From positions 124,001 to 188,000 of the forward strand of contig JAFTNZ010000021.1 in the NCBI GenBank assembly GCA_017451645.1: a DNA stretch of 64,000 nt, written 5' to 3'. This DNA is from Bacteroidaceae bacterium. Its GTDB lineage: Bacteria; Bacteroidota; Bacteroidia; Bacteroidales; Bacteroidaceae. Positions 20,807 to 60,050 of the stretch are shown piece by piece. Each line of letters starts with the position of its first letter. The stretch's first letter is position 1. The notes beneath the pieces were generated by a model. The model saw only the letters and a list, made by a program, of their open reading frames with translations, was not told the origin of the DNA and did not search any database. A program made the translations under genes and the position numbers.

Positions 20807-22897
20807 TTGATTTCAATAGAGAACCTTCAGGTGGAGTTTGCCGCCAAGCCCCTGTTTGCTGATGTTACGTTTGTGGTCAACAAGAAAGACCGCATTGCTT
20901 TGGTGGGAAAAAATGGTGCAGGGAAAAGTACCTTGTTGAAAATATTGGCCGGTTTGCAATCGCCCACCGAGGGTAACGTTTCCATTCCTAAGGACATTTC
21001 GGTGGGCTATCTGCCGCAGGTGATGGTGCTCAGCGATTCGCGTACGGTGATGGAAGAGGCCGAGCAGGCTTTCGAGCATATCAGCGAATTGCAGGCAAGC
21101 ATCGAGCAGATGAACAACCAGCTGGCCGAGCGTACCGACTACGAGAGCGAGGAGTATCAGGCCCTGATAGAGAAGTTCACCCATGCCAACGAACACTATC
21201 AGATGATGGGCGGCAACAATTATCATGCCGAGATAGAGCGCACCCTGCAAGGATTAGGATTTGTACGGACAGATTTCGACCGGCCTACGTCGGAGTTCTC
21301 AGGCGGATGGCGTATGCGTATCGAGTTGGCCAAGTTGCTCTTGCGCCGTCCCGATGTGCTTCTGCTTGATGAGCCGACCAACCACCTCGACATTGAGAGC
21401 ATCCAGTGGTTGGAGAACTTCTTGGCTACACGGTGCAATGCCGTGGTGCTGGTGAGCCACGACCGTGCCTTCATTAACAATGTCACCACCCGCACCATTG
21501 AGATTTCTTGCGGACGCATCTACGACTACCGCGTAAAGTACGACGAGTTCATGCAACTCCGTGCCGAGCGGCGCGAACAGCAACTCCGTGCGTACGAGAA
21601 CCAACAAAAGGAGATTCAGGAGACGAAAGACTTTATCGAACGTTTCCGCTACAAGCCCACCAAAGCCGTACAGGTGCAGAGCCGCATCAAGCAATTGGAG
21701 AAGATTATCCCTATCGAGGTGGACGAGGTCGATAACTCTGCCCTCCGCCTGAAGTTTCCTCCTGCCCAACGTAGCGGTGACTATCCGGTCATTTGCGAGG
21801 AGGTAGAGAAAATGTACGGACAGACCCACCTAAATCCTCCCTGTGAGGGAGGACTTGGAGATAGTCAGAACCTCTCTACCCCCCTCCCTCACAGGGAGGG
21901 AGGGGGAGGGTCCGCCCATCTCGTCTTCTCCCACGTCAACCTTACCATCAAGCGTGGCGAAAAGGTGGCTTTCGTGGGAAAGAACGGTGAGGGGAAATCC
22001 ACCCTCGTCAAGTGTATCATGGGGGAAATACCTTTTGACGGCAACTTGAAGATTGGGCACAACATACAGATTGGCTATTTTGCACAAAACCAGGCACAAT
22101 TATTGGATGAGAATCTGACCGTCTTCGATACGATTGACCGCGTGGCCGTGGGCGACATCCGCACGCGCATCAAAGACATTCTGGGCGCCTTCATGTTTGG
22201 GGGCGAAGCAATAGAGAAGAAGGTGAAGGTGCTTTCCGGTGGTGAACGCAGCCGTTTGGCCATGATTCGTCTCCTGCTCGAGCCTGTCAACCTGCTTATC
22301 CTCGACGAGCCGACCAACCATCTCGACATGCGTTCGAAGGATGTGCTGAAGGAAGCCATCCGCGAGTTCGACGGAACAGTCATCGTTGTCAGCCACGACC
22401 GTGAGTTTCTCGACGGCCTTGTCACCAAGGTGTATGAATTCGGTGGCGGACAGGTGCGCGAACACTTGGGCGGCATTTATGACTTTCTTCAAAAAAAGCG
22501 CATTGACTCGCTCGACAAATTAGGTCGGCCCCTCTCCCTCACCCCTCCACAAGGGAGGGGAGTAGGTACTCCGGCTGCAGACAAGCAAAACACTTCACTC
22601 CCATCCCTTGGGAGGGGTAAGGGGGAGGGGCCGGCTAAAGTTGGTCTTCTCTCCTACGAACAACAGAAAGAGCAACAGAAACTTATCCGCCGTTTGGAAA
22701 AATCTGTGGCCGATTGCGAAGCCCGCATTGAGAAATTGGAGGCCGACATTGCCGCCCTTGAAGAGCAGATGGTCACCCCCAAAGGTGCAGCGGATATGAC
22801 GCTTTACGAGAAGCATGCCAACCTGAAGAAGCAACTTGATTCTGTAGTCGAGGAGTGGGAAACCGTTTCGATGGAGTTGGAGGACGCGATGGGATGA
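20807..22897 (+). CDS. ABC-F family ATPase (ribosome-associated type) with two in-frame repeat insertions
   Basis: A 696-residue protein with two ABC domains and no membrane segment, the ABC-F layout (Uup/EttA-like; translation-factor or antibiotic-protection roles are known in the family). First domain: Walker A GKNGAGKST, signature SGGWRMR, Walker B LLLDEPTNHLD. Second domain: GKNGEGKST, SGGERSRLAMIR, LLILDEPTNHLD. A C-terminal coiled coil follows. The start is the TTG at 20807: an AAGGAG sequence sits nine bases upstream and the residues after it (ISIENL) are the family N-terminus. Two C/G-rich inverted repeats are translated in frame as residues about 340-369 and 573-609, both at domain borders. 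Base composition is more GC-rich than the upstream gene. It overlaps the glycerate kinase start by four bases. Confidence 0.9.
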   Translation: MISIENLQVEFAAKPLFADVTFVVNKKDRIALVGKNGAGKSTLLKILAGLQSPTEGNVSIPKDISVGYLPQVMVLSDSRTVMEEAEQAFEHISELQASIEQMNNQLAERTDYESEEYQALIEKFTHANEHYQMMGGNNYHAEIERTLQGLGFVRTDFDRPTSEFSGGWRMRIELAKLLLRRPDVLLLDEPTNHLDIESIQWLENFLATRCNAVVLVSHDRAFINNVTTRTIEISCGRIYDYRVKYDEFMQLRAERREQQLRAYENQQKEIQETKDFIERFRYKPTKAVQVQSRIKQLEKIIPIEVDEVDNSALRLKFPPAQRSGDYPVICEEVEKMYGQTHLNPPCEGGLGDSQNLSTPLPHREGGGGSAHLVFSHVNLTIKRGEKVAFVGKNGEGKSTLVKCIMGEIPFDGNLKIGHNIQIGYFAQNQAQLLDENLTVFDTIDRVAVGDIRTRIKDILGAFMFGGEAIEKKVKVLSGGERSRLAMIRLLLEPVNLLILDEPTNHLDMRSKDVLKEAIREFDGTVIVVSHDREFLDGLVTKVYEFGGGQVREHLGGIYDFLQKKRIDSLDKLGRPLSLTPPQGRGVGTPAADKQNTSLPSLGRGKGEGPAKVGLLSYEQQKEQQKLIRRLEKSVADCEARIEKLEADIAALEEQMVTPKGAADMTLYEKHANLKKQLDSVVEEWETVSMELEDAMG
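21823..21913. repeat. REP-like inverted pair R1 inside the ABC-F gene
   Basis: The left arm (21823-21857) contains CCTCCCTGTGAGGGAGG, and the right arm (21872-21913) contains its complement plus GGGGGAGGGTCC. Each arm is itself a small hairpin. Translated in frame as a Pro/Gly-rich stretch between GQ and HLVF, the linker just before the second ABC domain. Confidence 0.85.
22523..22634. repeat. REP-like inverted pair R2 inside the ABC-F gene
   Basis: The left arm (22523-22574) contains CGGCCCCTC and ACCCCTCC-AC-AAGGGAGGGG, and the right arm (22591-22634) contains the inverted copy ending in GGGGGAGGGGCCGG. It is in frame and lies between the second ABC domain and the C-terminal coiled coil. 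Confidence 0.85.
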
Positions 22898-24084: not shown

Positions 24085-24226
24085 AAAAAATCAAATGTGC
24101 CGATATATCCTTTATCCCAAGCTTTGGGATACTTAAACCAAGCTTAGAGATAGTTATCCCAAGCTTTGGGATAACTAAACCAAGGTTTGGGATAAGTTAT
24201 GTTTCGGCACTTTTATACAATTTGAT
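24085..24226. repeat. Four-unit 21-bp-period palindromic array (copy A) with inverted flanks
   Basis: This array explains most of the 324-base gap between convergent glxK and the PL11 gene. Four 17-base units start at 24114, 24135, 24156 and 24177. Units 1 and 3 are the perfect palindrome ATCCCAAGCTTTGGGAT; units 2 and 4 are variants. Four-base spacers ACTT, AGTT and AACT separate them, and AAGT follows the last. The array is bracketed by TCAAA...TGTGCCGA on the left and TCGGCAC...TTTGATT on the right. See copy B at 59919-60030. Confidence 0.9.
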
Positions 24227-37851: not shown

Positions 37852-37924
37852 TGCCGGAAGTGTTTTTTATTCTGTGTGGTGATAAGTTCCTGCCCCAGTT
37901 TCGTATGTAGATATGCCATGCAGT

Positions 37925-38006
37925 CTTTGTCATCCTGAGTACCCATCACCCCTCGTCATCATCGAATTGTTTCACCGAAGGGTGATGGGTACTCAGGGTG
38001 ACAAAG
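37925..38006. repeat. 31-bp inverted repeat with 20-base loop
   Basis: Arms 37925-37955 and 37976-38006 match at 29 of 31 positions when inverted; they contain GTCATCCTGAGTACCCATCA and its complement. No ORF. It lies directly outside the left terminal repeat of the IS1595-like element, within the 374-base gap upstream of GH127. Confidence 0.85.
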
Positions 38007-38145
38007 AGATAAAAATAAGGGACTTATACGTTTCCAAACCTAAATAATCTTGCGGGATAAATCGGTTGATTATCTCGCAAGATTATTATTTTGCCAAGCA
38101 ATTTTTCTCACCAAAGTTATTAACACCAAATAATCGTTTGGTGTT

Positions 38146-52073: not shown

Positions 52074-53546
52074 ATGGAAGATATGGAGAAAAAGAAAGAA
52101 GAACCCAATAAATATGTCAAGGAACTGACGCAGGAGAAGTATAAATATGGCTTCACTACGGACGTTCATACAGAAATTATTGAAAGAGGATTGAACGAGG
52201 ATGTCGTCCGTTTGATCTCAATGAAGAAACAGGAACCGGAATGGCTTCTGGAATTCCGCCTGAAAGCATTCCGCCATTGGCAGACTATGGAGATGCCTAC
52301 ATGGGCGCACCTCCAGATTCCCGAGATAGACTATCAGGCCATCTCGTACTATGCTGACCCTACGGCAAAGAAGAAGGATGCACCGAAGAGCCTGGATGAA
52401 GTGGACCCGGAGTTGTTGAAGACGTTTGACAAACTGGGTATTCCCTTGGAAGAACAGATGGCTCTCAGTGGTATGGCGGTGGATGCCGTGATGGACTCGG
52501 TGTCGGTGAAGACAACTTTTAAGGAGACACTGATGGAGAAGGGCATCATCTTCTGCTCCATCAGTGAGGCGGTGCGCGAACACCCTGACTTGGTACAGAA
52601 ATATCTTGGTTCGGTGGTTCCTTATCGCGACAACTTCTTTGCTGCACTTAATTCGGCAGTCTTCAGCGATGGTTCATTCGTTTATATCCCTAAAGGTGTG
52701 CGTTGTCCAATGGAACTCAGCACCTATTTCCGCATCAATGCAGCTAATACGGGACAGTTCGAACGGACACTCATTGTGGCCGATGATGACAGCTACGTCT
52801 CTTATCTGGAAGGATGTACGGCTCCTATGCGCGACGAGAACCAACTTCATGCTGCCATAGTGGAGATTGTGGTGCATGACCGTGCCGAGGTGAAGTACAG
52901 TACTGTACAGAACTGGTATCCGGGTGATGCCGAGGGAAAGGGCGGTGTCTATAACTTCGTGACCAAACGTGGACATTGCAAGGGAGTGGACAGCAAACTA
53001 TCGTGGACACAGGTGGAGACAGGAAGTGCCATTACGTGGAAATATCCTTCGTGTGTCCTCTCTGGCGACAATTCTGTAGCAGAGTTTTACAGTGTGGCTG
53101 TGACCAACAATTACCAGCAGGCAGATACGGGTACCAAGATGATACACTTGGGGCGCAATACCCGTAGTACTATTATCAGTAAAGGTATCTCGGCAGGTAA
53201 GAGTCAGAATTCTTATCGTGGACTGGTGCGTGTGGCAGAGAAAGCCGATGGGGCACGAAACTACAGTCAGTGCGACTCGTTGTTGTTGGGCAGCAGTTGT
53301 GGTGCACATACCTTTCCTTATATGGATATCCGCAACGAGACGGCAGTGGTGGAACATGAGGCGACAACATCCAAAATCAGTGAAGACCAACTGTTCTATT
53401 GCAACCAGCGTGGCATTCCTACCGAGGAGGCCATTGGGCTGATTGTAAACGGATATGCCAAGGAGGTGATAAACAAACTGCCTATGGAATTTGCCGTCGA
53501 GGCACAAAAACTGCTCAGCATCTCGTTGGAGGGCAGTGTGGGATAA
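52074..53546 (+). CDS. sufB: Fe-S cluster assembly scaffold protein SufB
   Basis: Scaffold subunit of the SufBCD complex, which builds [Fe-S] clusters in the cytosol. The 490-residue product is full length (E. coli SufB is 495) with the family motifs [60 protein letters not shown], a [21 protein letters not shown] loop and the C-terminal [14 protein letters not shown]. The stop TAA (53544-53546) is directly followed by the left arm of repeat R3. It forms one operon with sufC and sufD. Confidence 0.97.
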
Positions 53547-53547
53547 C

Positions 53548-53743
53548 GGACCCTCCCCCTTGCCCCTCCCTGTAATGGAGGGGAGCGGATAGCCTGATAA
53601 TACGTGTACATAATATACATAATATAATAAGGAATAAGAAAAAGATATATCATCATGGATAAGGATAGTAAAGATTATAAGGAACAAATGCAAGCAGAAC
53701 ATTCTACTCCCCTCCATACAGGGAGGGGGCAGGGGGTGGGTCC
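53548..53743. repeat. REP-like inverted pair R3 at the sufB/sufC junction
   Basis: The left arm 53548-53585 (GGACCCTCCCCCTTGCCCCT...) and right arm 53704-53743 (CTCCCCTCCATACAGGGAGG...) are inverted copies. Between them lie 118 AT-rich bases and the annotated sufC start. The right arm is translated if sufC starts at 53655. Confidence 0.85.
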
Positions 53744-54512
53744 GATGGGTCCGCTTTTATCCATTAAAGATTTGCACGCCAGCATCAATGGCAAAGAGAT
53801 ATTGAAAGGCATCAATCTGGAGGTGAAGCCGGGCGAAGTGCACGCTCTGATGGGACAGAATGGAGCGGGTAAGAGTACGCTGAGCAATGTGCTTGTGGGG
53901 CATCCGGCTTACGAGGTGACCAAGGGAAGTGTGACCTATAATGGCAAAGACTTGCTTGCCATGAGTCCCGAAGACCGTGCACACGAGGGCTTGTTCCTCT
54001 CTTTCCAACACCCTGTGGAGATTCCCGGAGTGTCGATGGTCAACTTCATGCGTGCGGCAGTGAATGAGCATCGTAAGTATAAGGGACTGCCTGCCCTCAC
54101 AGCCAGTGAGTTCCTGAAACTGATGCGCGAGAAGCGTGCCATTGTGGAACTGGATGGAAAGTTGGCAAACCGCAGTGTGAACGAAGGGTTCAGTGGTGGA
54201 GAGAAGAAACGTAATGAGATTTTCCAAATGGCGATGCTGGAACCGACTTTTGCTATTCTTGACGAGACGGACTCCGGTCTTGATGTGGATGCTCTCCGCA
54301 TCGTGGCTGAAGGGTTCAACAAATTGCGTACTCCAGAGACCAGCGCCATAGTGATTACCCATTACCAGCGTCTGTTGGATTACCTCAAGCCGGATATAGT
54401 GCATGTCCTGTTGGACGGTCGTATCGTGAAAACCGGTGGTCCTGATCTGGCTCAGGAAATCGAACAACGCGGCTTCGACTGGATAAAGCGTGAGGTACAG
54501 ACCCTCCCCTGA
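53655..54512 (+). CDS. sufC: Fe-S cluster assembly ATPase SufC
   Basis: ABC-type ATPase of the SufBCD complex. Motifs: Walker A GQNGAGKST, Q-loop LFLSFQHPVEIPG, signature FSGGEKKRNEIFQM and Walker B FAILDETDSGLDVDAL. The longest frame (285 residues from ATG 53655) has a ~32-residue N-terminal extension partly translated from repeat R3; normal SufC starts with LLSIKDLHA. An in-frame ATG at 53745 (MGPLLSIKDL), directly after the repeat, would give 255 residues, the usual length, so the true start is uncertain. The stop TGA (54510-54512) lies inside the left arm of repeat R4. Confidence 0.93.
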   Translation: MDKDSKDYKEQMQAEHSTPLHTGRGQGVGPMGPLLSIKDLHASINGKEILKGINLEVKPGEVHALMGQNGAGKSTLSNVLVGHPAYEVTKGSVTYNGKDLLAMSPEDRAHEGLFLSFQHPVEIPGVSMVNFMRAAVNEHRKYKGLPALTASEFLKLMREKRAIVELDGKLANRSVNEGFSGGEKKRNEIFQMAMLEPTFAILDETDSGLDVDALRIVAEGFNKLRTPETSAIVITHYQRLLDYLKPDIVHVLLDGRIVKTGGPDLAQEIEQRGFDWIKREVQTLP

Positions 54513-54643
54513 CCCCTCCCTGTATGGAGGGGTATGAATACTTATTCCATCTATTACATTAAAGATTATAATGAACAGCAATCATAACAAGTCGGGACTA
54601 TCTACTCCCCTCCATTACAGGGAGGGGCAGGGGGGAGGGTCCG
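54500..54643. repeat. REP-like inverted pair R4 at the sufC/sufD junction
   Basis: The left arm 54500-54535 (GACCCTCCCCTGACCCCTCC...) contains the sufC stop codon, and the right arm 54602-54643 (CTACTCCCCTCCATTACAGG...) is translated near the sufD N-terminus. The 66 bases between hold the sufD start. Confidence 0.87.
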
Positions 54644-55977
54644 CTACTCAATATATAGAACTTTTTGCCCAGTGCGAGGCCATGATTAGCAAGCATAGTG
54701 CTGAGGTGTTGAACTCCCTTCGCGCAAAGGCTTTTGAGGATTTTAAGCGTCTGGGATTTTCTACCCGGAAGGACGAGGATTATAAATATACGGATGTCAG
54801 TAAAGCCTTTGAGCCGGATTATGGTCTCAATCTCAACAGGTTGGATATTCCGGTCAATCCCTATGACGTGTTCAAGTGCGACGTGCCCAATATGAGTACG
54901 GCTCTCTACTTTGTGGCGAATGATAGCTTTTATAATAAGGCATTGCCCAAGAGTAATCTGCCGGAAGGTGTATTGCTTGGCAGTCTTAAAGAATTGTCTG
55001 AGTCGTATCCCGAATTGGTGGGCAAATATTATGGGAAATTGGCAGAGACTTCCAAAGATGCAGTGGTGGCACTCAATACCATGTTGGCGCAAGATGGGTT
55101 GCTCCTTTATGTGCCCAAAGGTGTAGTGGTGGAGAAACCTATACAATTGGTGAATATCTTGCGTGCGGATGTAAACTTTATGGTCAATCGTCGGGTGTTG
55201 GTTATCTTGGAAGATGGTGCGCGAGCGCGTTTGTTGATGTGCGACCATGCCATGGACAAGGTCGATTTTCTGGCAACGCAAGTTATAGAGGCCTATGTGG
55301 GAAGCGGTGCTACACTTGATTTCTATGAACTGGAAGAGAATACTACAGCAACTCGTCGTTTCAGCTACCTCAATGTGTACCAAGAGGCTGACAGCAATGT
55401 GCTGGTAGGTGGGATAACCTTGCATAATGGCTTGACACGTAACACTACTCGTGTCACTCTTGCCGGGCAGGGGGCTTACATCAATCTCTCGGGTATGGCT
55501 ATTGCCGACAAAAATCAGCATGTGGACAATCATACTTTCATCGACCATCAGGTTCCTGATTGCACCAGTCGTGAATTGTATAAATATGTCCTTGACGATA
55601 GTGCTACAGGGGCTTTTGCTGGTAAGGTGCTTGTCCGTGAAGGGGCACAACATACTGCTTCTGAACAGACCAACCGTAACTTGTGCGTCACTCGTCAGGC
55701 ACGTATGTACACCCAGCCGCAGTTGGAAATCTATGCTGATGATGTGAAATGCAGCCATGGGGCAACAGTCGGACAACTTGATGAAAATGCCCTCTTCTAC
55801 ATGCGTCAGCGAGGTGTCAGCGAGCAAGAGGCCCGTCTGCTTCTGATGTTTGCTTTTGTTGGTGATGTGGTGGACAATATCCGCCTTGATGCCTTACGGG
55901 ACCGCTTGCACCTACTCGTGGAGAAACGTTTTCGTGGAGAGATGGGCAAGTGCCAAGGGTGTACTATGTGTAAATAG
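54571..55977 (+). CDS. sufD: Fe-S cluster assembly protein SufD
   Basis: Partner of SufB in the SufBCD scaffold. The 468-residue product has the SufD core (KYTDVSKAFEPDYGLNLN, LLYVPKGVVVEKPIQLVNILRA, VILEDGARARLLMCDH, LDFYELEEN), the beta-helix region and the C-terminal RDRLHLLVEKRFRGEMGKCQGCTMCK; a Cys-rich tail like CxxCxxC is common in Bacteroidetes SufD. Residues about 10-25 (LSTPLHYREGQGGGSA) are encoded by the right arm of repeat R4, and the conserved part begins only at TQYIELFAQCEAM; no alternative ATG precedes it, so the repeat probably is translated. Confidence 0.95.
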   Translation: MNSNHNKSGLSTPLHYREGQGGGSATQYIELFAQCEAMISKHSAEVLNSLRAKAFEDFKRLGFSTRKDEDYKYTDVSKAFEPDYGLNLNRLDIPVNPYDVFKCDVPNMSTALYFVANDSFYNKALPKSNLPEGVLLGSLKELSESYPELVGKYYGKLAETSKDAVVALNTMLAQDGLLLYVPKGVVVEKPIQLVNILRADVNFMVNRRVLVILEDGARARLLMCDHAMDKVDFLATQVIEAYVGSGATLDFYELEENTTATRRFSYLNVYQEADSNVLVGGITLHNGLTRNTTRVTLAGQGAYINLSGMAIADKNQHVDNHTFIDHQVPDCTSRELYKYVLDDSATGAFAGKVLVREGAQHTASEQTNRNLCVTRQARMYTQPQLEIYADDVKCSHGATVGQLDENALFYMRQRGVSEQEARLLLMFAFVGDVVDNIRLDALRDRLHLLVEKRFRGEMGKCQGCTMCK

Positions 55978-59918: not shown

Positions 59919-60030
59919 AAAAATCAAAATTGCTTTGCATGAAACTTTAATCATCGTCGATGTTTATATAATCATCGACGATGACTATGTGATTATCGAC
60001 GATGTTTATATAGTTATCGTCGATGATTAA
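59919..60030. repeat. Four-unit 21-bp-period palindromic array (copy B)
   Basis: In the 301-base gap between convergent sufS and the TlpA-like gene. Units start at 59950, 59971, 59992 and 60013, each 13 bases of the form (A/G)TYATCG(A/T)CGATG, separated by 8-base spacers TTTATATA, ACTATGTG and TTTATATA. The core CATCGWCGATG is palindromic. An AAAAATCAAA word lies 21 bases before the first unit, as in copy A (24085-24226). Confidence 0.9.
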
Positions 60031-60050
60031 ACTTTTCTCTTTAGTCATAT

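Follow-up and report, generated by a model that had tools for sequence, protein, structure and literature searches.

The ABC-F ATPase gene at positions 20807–22897 (plus strand) of the window, the whole stretch of 64,000 nucleotides analysed here (G000:C12:124001-188000), carries two inverted-pair palindromic elements, R1 and R2, within a single reading frame that stays open through both for 696 aa. R1 and R2 are probably REPIN-like miniature palindromic dimers, members of a family that would have multiplied in the form of inverted dimers within a single clade of the genus and whose in-frame survivors would be tolerated as spacers. The source genome, G000, comprises 2.5 Mb in 38 contigs and is 72.6% complete.

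R1 extends from about 21818 to 21914 (GGACAGACCC ... GGGTCCG) and R2 from about 22523 to 22635. The arms of R1 are inverted over 35 nt with 77% complementarity, those of R2 over 44 nt with 75%, and every arm of both forms a hairpin of its own. The best 35-nt inverted arms of the gene reach 27 matches, more than any of 40 dinucleotide shuffles (mean 20.7, maximum 23), indicating that they did not arise by chance. The preliminary description had presented both elements as pairs of inverted arms, each arm a hairpin, that leave the frame unbroken, and it is borne out in these respects. The left arm of R1 (21818–21865, minus strand) is a diverged unit with its GGACAGACCC end outward, an inverted repeat too diverged for our covariance model. 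The model matches the right arm of R1, which bears the GGGTCCG end (21871–21916, plus strand; C12:145871-145916, E 3.4e-11), the left arm of R2 (22524–22570, minus strand; C12:146524-146570, E 4.0e-9) and its right arm (22590–22635, plus strand; C12:146590-146635, E 1.7e-10); these E values hold for one genome, and the units concerned went into model building or adjoin ones that did.

The repeat unit is a hairpin of about 46 nt with the consensus CATTCTACT-CCCCTCCCTTGGGAGGGG-CAAGGGGGAGGGTCCG. About 10 nt, usually ending in YYACT, are followed by a CCCCTCCC-loop-GGGAGGGG hairpin, whose apex is of several types, and then by CA(A)GGGGGAGGGTC[CT]. The 5′ foot of the hairpin reads YYAC in 35 of 45 units and not GT[AG]G, the mark of a GTAG-type tag. 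Of the 45, 27 contain a G-quadruplex motif. The covariance model was built from these 45 G000 units only, after removal of reverse readings of the same palindromes. Its RNAalifold structure pairs the C-rich arm with the distal G-run, and the model was hence used for detection only. It finds 78 matches in G000 at E≤0.1; at E≤1e-4 there are 62, the further genomic copies that the preliminary description had led one to look for, a count obtained under stricter filters with at most 102 candidates scored per genome. A pattern search of the same genome gave 38 matches versus 2 for a reversed-pattern control.

Among the 24 cases in which two units lie within 130 bp of each other, 23 are arranged minus-then-plus and one minus-minus, with no other arrangement. 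The repeating entity is thus an inverted dimer whose GGGTCC ends point outward, as the earlier comparison with REP-like inverted pairs had proposed. The loops of the 23 pairs measure 8–105 nt, six of them 8–9 nt, and in five of these six short-loop pairs one arm is of a second type, CCTTCCCC..GGGGAAGG. The long-loop pairs enclose locus-specific sequence together with the start codon of the next gene; a simple dimer with a short loop gives no account of this, which tells against the REPIN-like reading. Inspection by eye had suggested that the arms within a pair evolve in step; the shuffle test did not support this, as 867 of 5000 shuffles reach the observed likeness.

The units are confined to part of the genus and a few genomes beyond it. 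With the same scoring and E≤1e-4, the counts are 62 in G000, at least 101 in G002, 76 in G005, 34 in G006, 47 in G011, 31 each in G012 and G013, and 70 in G014; the seven remaining genus members examined, among them the 99% complete G008, yield none at this threshold. Outside the genus there are 51 in G034, 27 in G032, 10 in G030, 3 in G038, and one each in G020, G028 and G058, and 46 of the 61 genomes have no unit at E≤1e-4. An exact-pattern search found 13 of the 61, namely the same eight genus members plus G030, G032, G034, G038 and G055, and the reversed-pattern control gave zero matches in all 61 genomes. For the CCTTCCCC..GGGGAAGG arm type, an exact pattern matches those eight genus genomes and just one other of the 61, G038. 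The element had been called actively spreading; the part of this claim that the distribution supports is a spread during the radiation of this clade.

The ABC-F protein of the window aligns with YbiT, YheS and EttA chains, its YbiT match covering residues 4–305 and 373–566. R1 lies just N-terminal of residue 373, where the alignment with the second half of YbiT begins. It adds about 31 residues in the turn directly after the conserved Tyr of 'V.K.Y' (site I). The closest of 80 named orthologues is a Paraprevotella MAG with 75% best-segment identity, a relative ranking in that records of G000 or very near ones were possibly excluded from the set; one alignment set 30 of the 80 beside the window protein. 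Site I is 11–12 residues long in 76 of the 80 and 15 in L242, and only L261 and L205 have long inserts there; L234 was set aside from the length counts at sites I and II, the wrong frame having been chosen for it. Among 17 aligned relatives the site I insert is present in three (G000, G002 and, shortened, G005) and absent in 14, the inserts of G005 in this protein and in its paralogue being below the model threshold and assigned by eye from the DNA. When the flanks of filled and empty copies of site I were compared by eye, no clean target-site duplication could be named. In L261, a sheep MAG, site I is filled by a short STLNS-coding repeat.

R2 lies where the orthologues have a Ser/Pro-rich linker of variable native length (site II). 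The segment has 52 residues here and 30–40 in 56 of the 80 orthologues. Recognition of R2 by length alone was rejected, since 9 of 79 unit-free orthologues have at least 50 residues there, of other sequence. The net gain over the close relative G006 is about 17 residues; R2 is thus no clean insertion and replaces part of the native linker. The expectation of two orthologue gaps of about 30 residues exactly at domain borders therefore held for R1, its place now refined to the turn after the Tyr, and failed for R2 as a clean insert.

The turn at site I has been occupied repeatedly. The ABC-F paralogue (C12:38769-40451, 65% identity) carries different inserts of this kind in the same turn in three of seven species. 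The filled copies of paralogues A and B have identical left junction letters in G005 and nearly identical ones in G000 and G002, as gene conversion rather than independent insertion would leave them; such a transfer is possible if somewhat doubtful, as A and B carry differing inserted copies, and in Bacteroides sp. 224 this ABC-F turn is filled by a palindrome from another family. In that strain (L205) an inverted pair of this other sequence family is found at both site I and site II, and in Bacteroides sp. 51 (L206) an other-family pair is found at site II.

In-frame units occur in several further core genes, among them those for LeuRS, DnaG, CcsA/ResB-like proteins, LeuC, Ddl, SufC and SufD, each of which has unit-free orthologues. 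Pfam matches back the LeuRS, DnaG, CcsA and ResB types, Ddl, the ABC ATPase, SufBD and the aconitase family. A 408-aa protein, also a host, has no Pfam match and is taken by us for an acyltransferase; the names LeuA, LeuD, DPP-IV, TolC and YitT for other gene products are likewise our assumption. The hosts were compared over at most six other species, and matches below 38% identity were dropped.

LeuRS has about 30 extra residues in G000 only and none in six other species; in G006 and G014 units adjoin the end of the LeuRS gene instead. The protein matches a solved LeuRS in the pieces 2–143, 204–418 and 489–973, with the insert in the last gap. The LeuRS region is present on both C29 and C30 of G000 in opposite orientation, an apparent assembly duplicate. 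DnaG contains a unit in G000, G002, G005 and G014, in a linker that is variable across every species compared, and none was found in G006, G008 and G011. The CcsA- and ResB-like proteins contain units in G000, G002, G005, G011 and G014 but not in G006 or G008; these cases are less clean, G006 having other filler of some length in both loops and G008 a long CcsA loop, and the ResB piece of G008 was not recovered.

Several units lie directly after the start codon. Such a unit is present in Ddl of G000 and G005 and absent in G006, G008 and G011, the G002 gene being cut by a contig end; in the 408-aa protein it is present in G000, G002, G005 and G011 and absent in G006 and G008. SufC has it in G000, G002 and G005 and lacks it in G006, G008 and G011, and SufD has it in G000 and G002 and lacks it in G005, G006, G008 and G011. 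LeuC has it in G000 only, the G011 protein having a different N-terminal extension not matched by the model. At the leuD-leuA junction units are present in five of six species and absent in G008. The range from one species for LeuRS to five of the six compared for this junction suggests that the insertions differ in age.

Both suf junctions lie in the window. A unit at the 3′ end of the gene that precedes sufC (53545–53593, minus strand; C12:177545-177593, E 1.4e-12) is the left partner of a unit within the first 31 codons of sufC (53699–53746, plus strand; C12:177699-177746, E 2.8e-12). The sufC-like ORF (53655–54512, plus strand; 285 aa) thus has a unit in its first codons, and a later in-frame ATG follows. 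A second pair consists of a unit overlapping the sufC end (54496–54542, minus strand; C12:178496-178542, E 7.0e-9) and one in sufD codons 9–25 (54597–54645, plus strand; C12:178597-178645, E 5.0e-14). The start codon of the sufD-like ORF (54571–55977, plus strand; 468 aa, SufBD domains) lies in the loop of this pair.

A related palindrome is found inside genes of a second genus, represented by G034. Text-pattern matches in only 20 stretches of this genome gave 29 hairpins (51 copies by the model genome-wide), and 19 of the 29 lie inside ORFs of at least 80 aa, at least one of the 19 ORFs (L292:2395-3198) being doubtful. QueG, QueA and BirA exceed the curated cut-offs as hosts; CcsB-like and RlmL-like proteins are below theirs. 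The 478-aa QueA matches the solved 346-residue QueA in three separate pieces.

Insertion into proteins is one of several outcomes. At E≤1e-4, 58 distinct units were classified in G000, and 28 are intergenic and 30 overlap ORFs: 13 internally, 13 in the first 30 codons and 4 in the last 30. The ORFs are our own calls of at least 100 aa, by a method blind to copies that broke a gene. Matches on C29 (three at E≤1e-4) were left out of the 58 because C29 repeats a stretch of C30; two short ORFs were treated as spurious; and C12:39393 was merged with C12:39385, one palindrome read on two strands, which reduced 59 units to 58 and left 13 internal. ORFs make up about 90% of the sequence examined, and against this share units look underrepresented inside genes and overrepresented at gene ends. 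The earlier view that the element is tolerated only in linkers is too narrow, given the 28 of 58 units between genes and the 17 of 58 in terminal codons. The 30 overlapping units are read in the three same-strand phases 14, 7 and 2 times and on the opposite strand 7 times. This use of several phases and both strands points to a DNA-level element and not to a selected peptide.

By eye, units in L083:3043-5244, L078:6958-8484 and L094:3503-4456 of G000 precede the hydrophobic stretch of apparent signal peptides, and the same was seen in L291:2098-2772 and L295:2346-4421 of G034. Two similar ORFs of about 800 aa, L084:6889-9279 and L085:1976-4387, contain two units each; the one tested has no Pfam match. 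Both also carry a second repeat, of the GGAGTTCAGGAGTTGCAG kind, which was seen upstream of sufC in G002 as well.

The REPIN-like reading builds on the observed repeats, their orientation and distribution, their presence or absence in orthologues and the open frames. The dimer would be the spreading unit, its two arms of about 46 nt facing outward across a loop of variable length. Since the sense frames hold few stops, an in-gene dimer whose length is a multiple of three could be translated straight through as a spacer rich in Pro and Gly. Copies would persist in intergenic sequence or at protein positions that accept a flexible insert, such as inter-domain linkers, loops and termini, and R1 and R2 would be two such survivors in one gene. 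The units are presumably translated and would persist by tolerance, not benefit; movement may have been by a single-strand HUH/Y1 (RAYT-type) transposase. Three typed unit variants have a stop in one, two and three of six frames, with eight of nine sense frames open, so that read-through is not guaranteed, a point against this reading.

Where units follow start codons, the true start might lie after the unit, which would then be 5′ untranslated sequence; most N-terminal REPs of other species were argued to be such cases (PMC3733652). A later in-frame ATG does exist in SufC (of G000) and LeuA, which are weaker cases, and one of the 13 N-terminal units overlies the start called for its 529-aa ORF. 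Ddl, SufD, LeuC and the 408-aa protein, however, have no in-frame ATG, GTG or TTG from the unit to the first conserved residues, and translation of the unit is the simplest reading; the 13 internal units are unaffected in any case. Annotation artefacts are a very improbable explanation of the N-terminal cases. Alternatively, the dimers might be kept for a role at junctions, as stem-loops that insulate operon genes or hold a start codon in the loop, the in-gene copies being by-products. Pairs occupy three consecutive gene junctions in the leu cluster and the two suf junctions of the window, which would suit such a role, as would the downstream start codon found in the loop of at least 8 of the 23 pairs in our own reading, and the predicted RNA energies of the 23 pairs, −41 to −106 kcal/mol. 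Yet the same junctions are patchily occupied among sister species, and the same unit family lies inside unrelated proteins in several frames, which makes a retained junction function decidedly unlikely. A bolder proposal is that the element prefers the translation-initiation regions of operon genes and, together with the inserts in linkers, systematically rewrites core proteins across several genera of Bacteroidaceae, palindromes that differ in sequence repeatedly choosing the same turns. One unit would then sit at the upstream stop codon and one a few codons past the following start; a hairpin of great stability would hold that start codon in its loop, and the second unit would form an N-terminal tail. 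This we regard as rather unlikely.

The REPIN-like reading would call for a mobilising enzyme, and a RAYT-like protein is a candidate for it. The search of the 72.6% complete G000 for a RAYT-type Y1 transposase (PF01797), suggested in the preliminary description, found no gene. RAYT-like candidates of 336–379 aa with a long C-terminal part are present in G005, G012 and G014, three of the eight element-bearing genomes of the genus, and were not found in G000, G002, G006, G011 and G013 (65–91% complete). Motifs of the DH[VL]H and Y[IL]..NP type were recognised in them by eye; their best match is the REP-associated transposase model at 36–45 bits, the cut-off being 80. No unit at E≤1 flanks the genes of G005, G012 and G014. 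That no Y1 gene was found in G000, no candidate in five of the eight element-bearing genus genomes, and no unit beside the candidates of the other three counts against the REPIN-like reading. In G030 a RAYT-like gene (L131:1222-3065; G030:C13) has two related palindromes upstream and one downstream. Over 61 genomes, units and candidate co-occur in 4, the candidate alone is in 3, units alone in 9 and neither in 45 (Fisher p 0.03, kinship ignored).

Rickettsia palindromic elements are the best-known case of palindromes inside genes (PMC10969869). They are about 150 bp long and, in the portion of that account used here, are said to encode a conserved peptide (PMC10969869). The present units resemble them, as the preliminary description had suggested, in that an in-frame palindrome lies in unrelated genes with empty orthologues (ABC-F A and B, LeuRS, Ddl, SufC, SufD, LeuC), and they work in a like manner. 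In contrast, they occur in several frames and on both strands with no one conserved peptide, and the sequences are unrelated as far as seen, the comparison being by the description in PMC10969869. REPINs, in the extracts of PMC3116915 considered, are inverted REP doublets with a spacer and predicted hairpins, defined in extragenic space and beside RAYT genes. The shared features are short palindromic units repeated genome-wide as inverted pairs; unlike the REPINs of that description, the present ones are not mostly extragenic, and no unit-flanked RAYT was found in the genus.

The closest parallels come from the GTAG and CGTC intragenic REPs, for which the passages of PMC3733652 drawn on here describe dimers read as 20–30 residues in genes, sometimes two per gene, with tRNA synthetase hosts and nearly the same site used in two recB homologues. 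In-gene dimers in open frames, two in one gene, a tRNA synthetase host and the same site in homologues are all found here too. Those REPs belong to other phyla, and the present units differ from their description (PMC3733652) in having YYAC 5′ of the stem and a GT-tag on the 3′ side. Many of the N-terminal REP insertions in those phyla were discounted as potential misannotations (PMC3733652). In the present clade, empty orthologous sites and the want of a start codon beyond the unit make several N-terminal and internal insertions in core genes hard to dismiss. Among Bacteroidetes, the part of PMC6006769 concerned with TnpA-REP describes subclass 2.6, with atypical structures lacking a GTAG tag, and subclass 2.4, with REPs in frame inside the transposase gene. 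The Bacteroidetes setting, the atypical structures without GTAG and the in-frame REPs are similar, whereas our candidates, by their length, long C-terminal part and scores below the cut-off, differ from the subclasses as described there (PMC6006769).

No further report of in-gene repeats of such kind in Bacteroides, Prevotella, Paraprevotella or Bacteroidetes was found in the open-licence literature. The kind of element is thus already known from other phyla; the novelty lies in the family of sequences, its occurrence in Bacteroidaceae, N-terminal insertions for which empty sites exist, and the recurrent use of a single ABC-F turn. This repeated occupation lets one ask which positions naturally tolerate inserts of 20–35 residues.

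Three other repeats were noted in the window. Positions 24112–24194 hold three head-to-tail 21-nt copies and positions 59939–60035 an inverted repeat with 41-nt arms, both by eye unrelated to the 46-nt unit. A further inverted repeat, at 37924–38007, has 32-nt arms of 94% complementarity with 20 nt between them.
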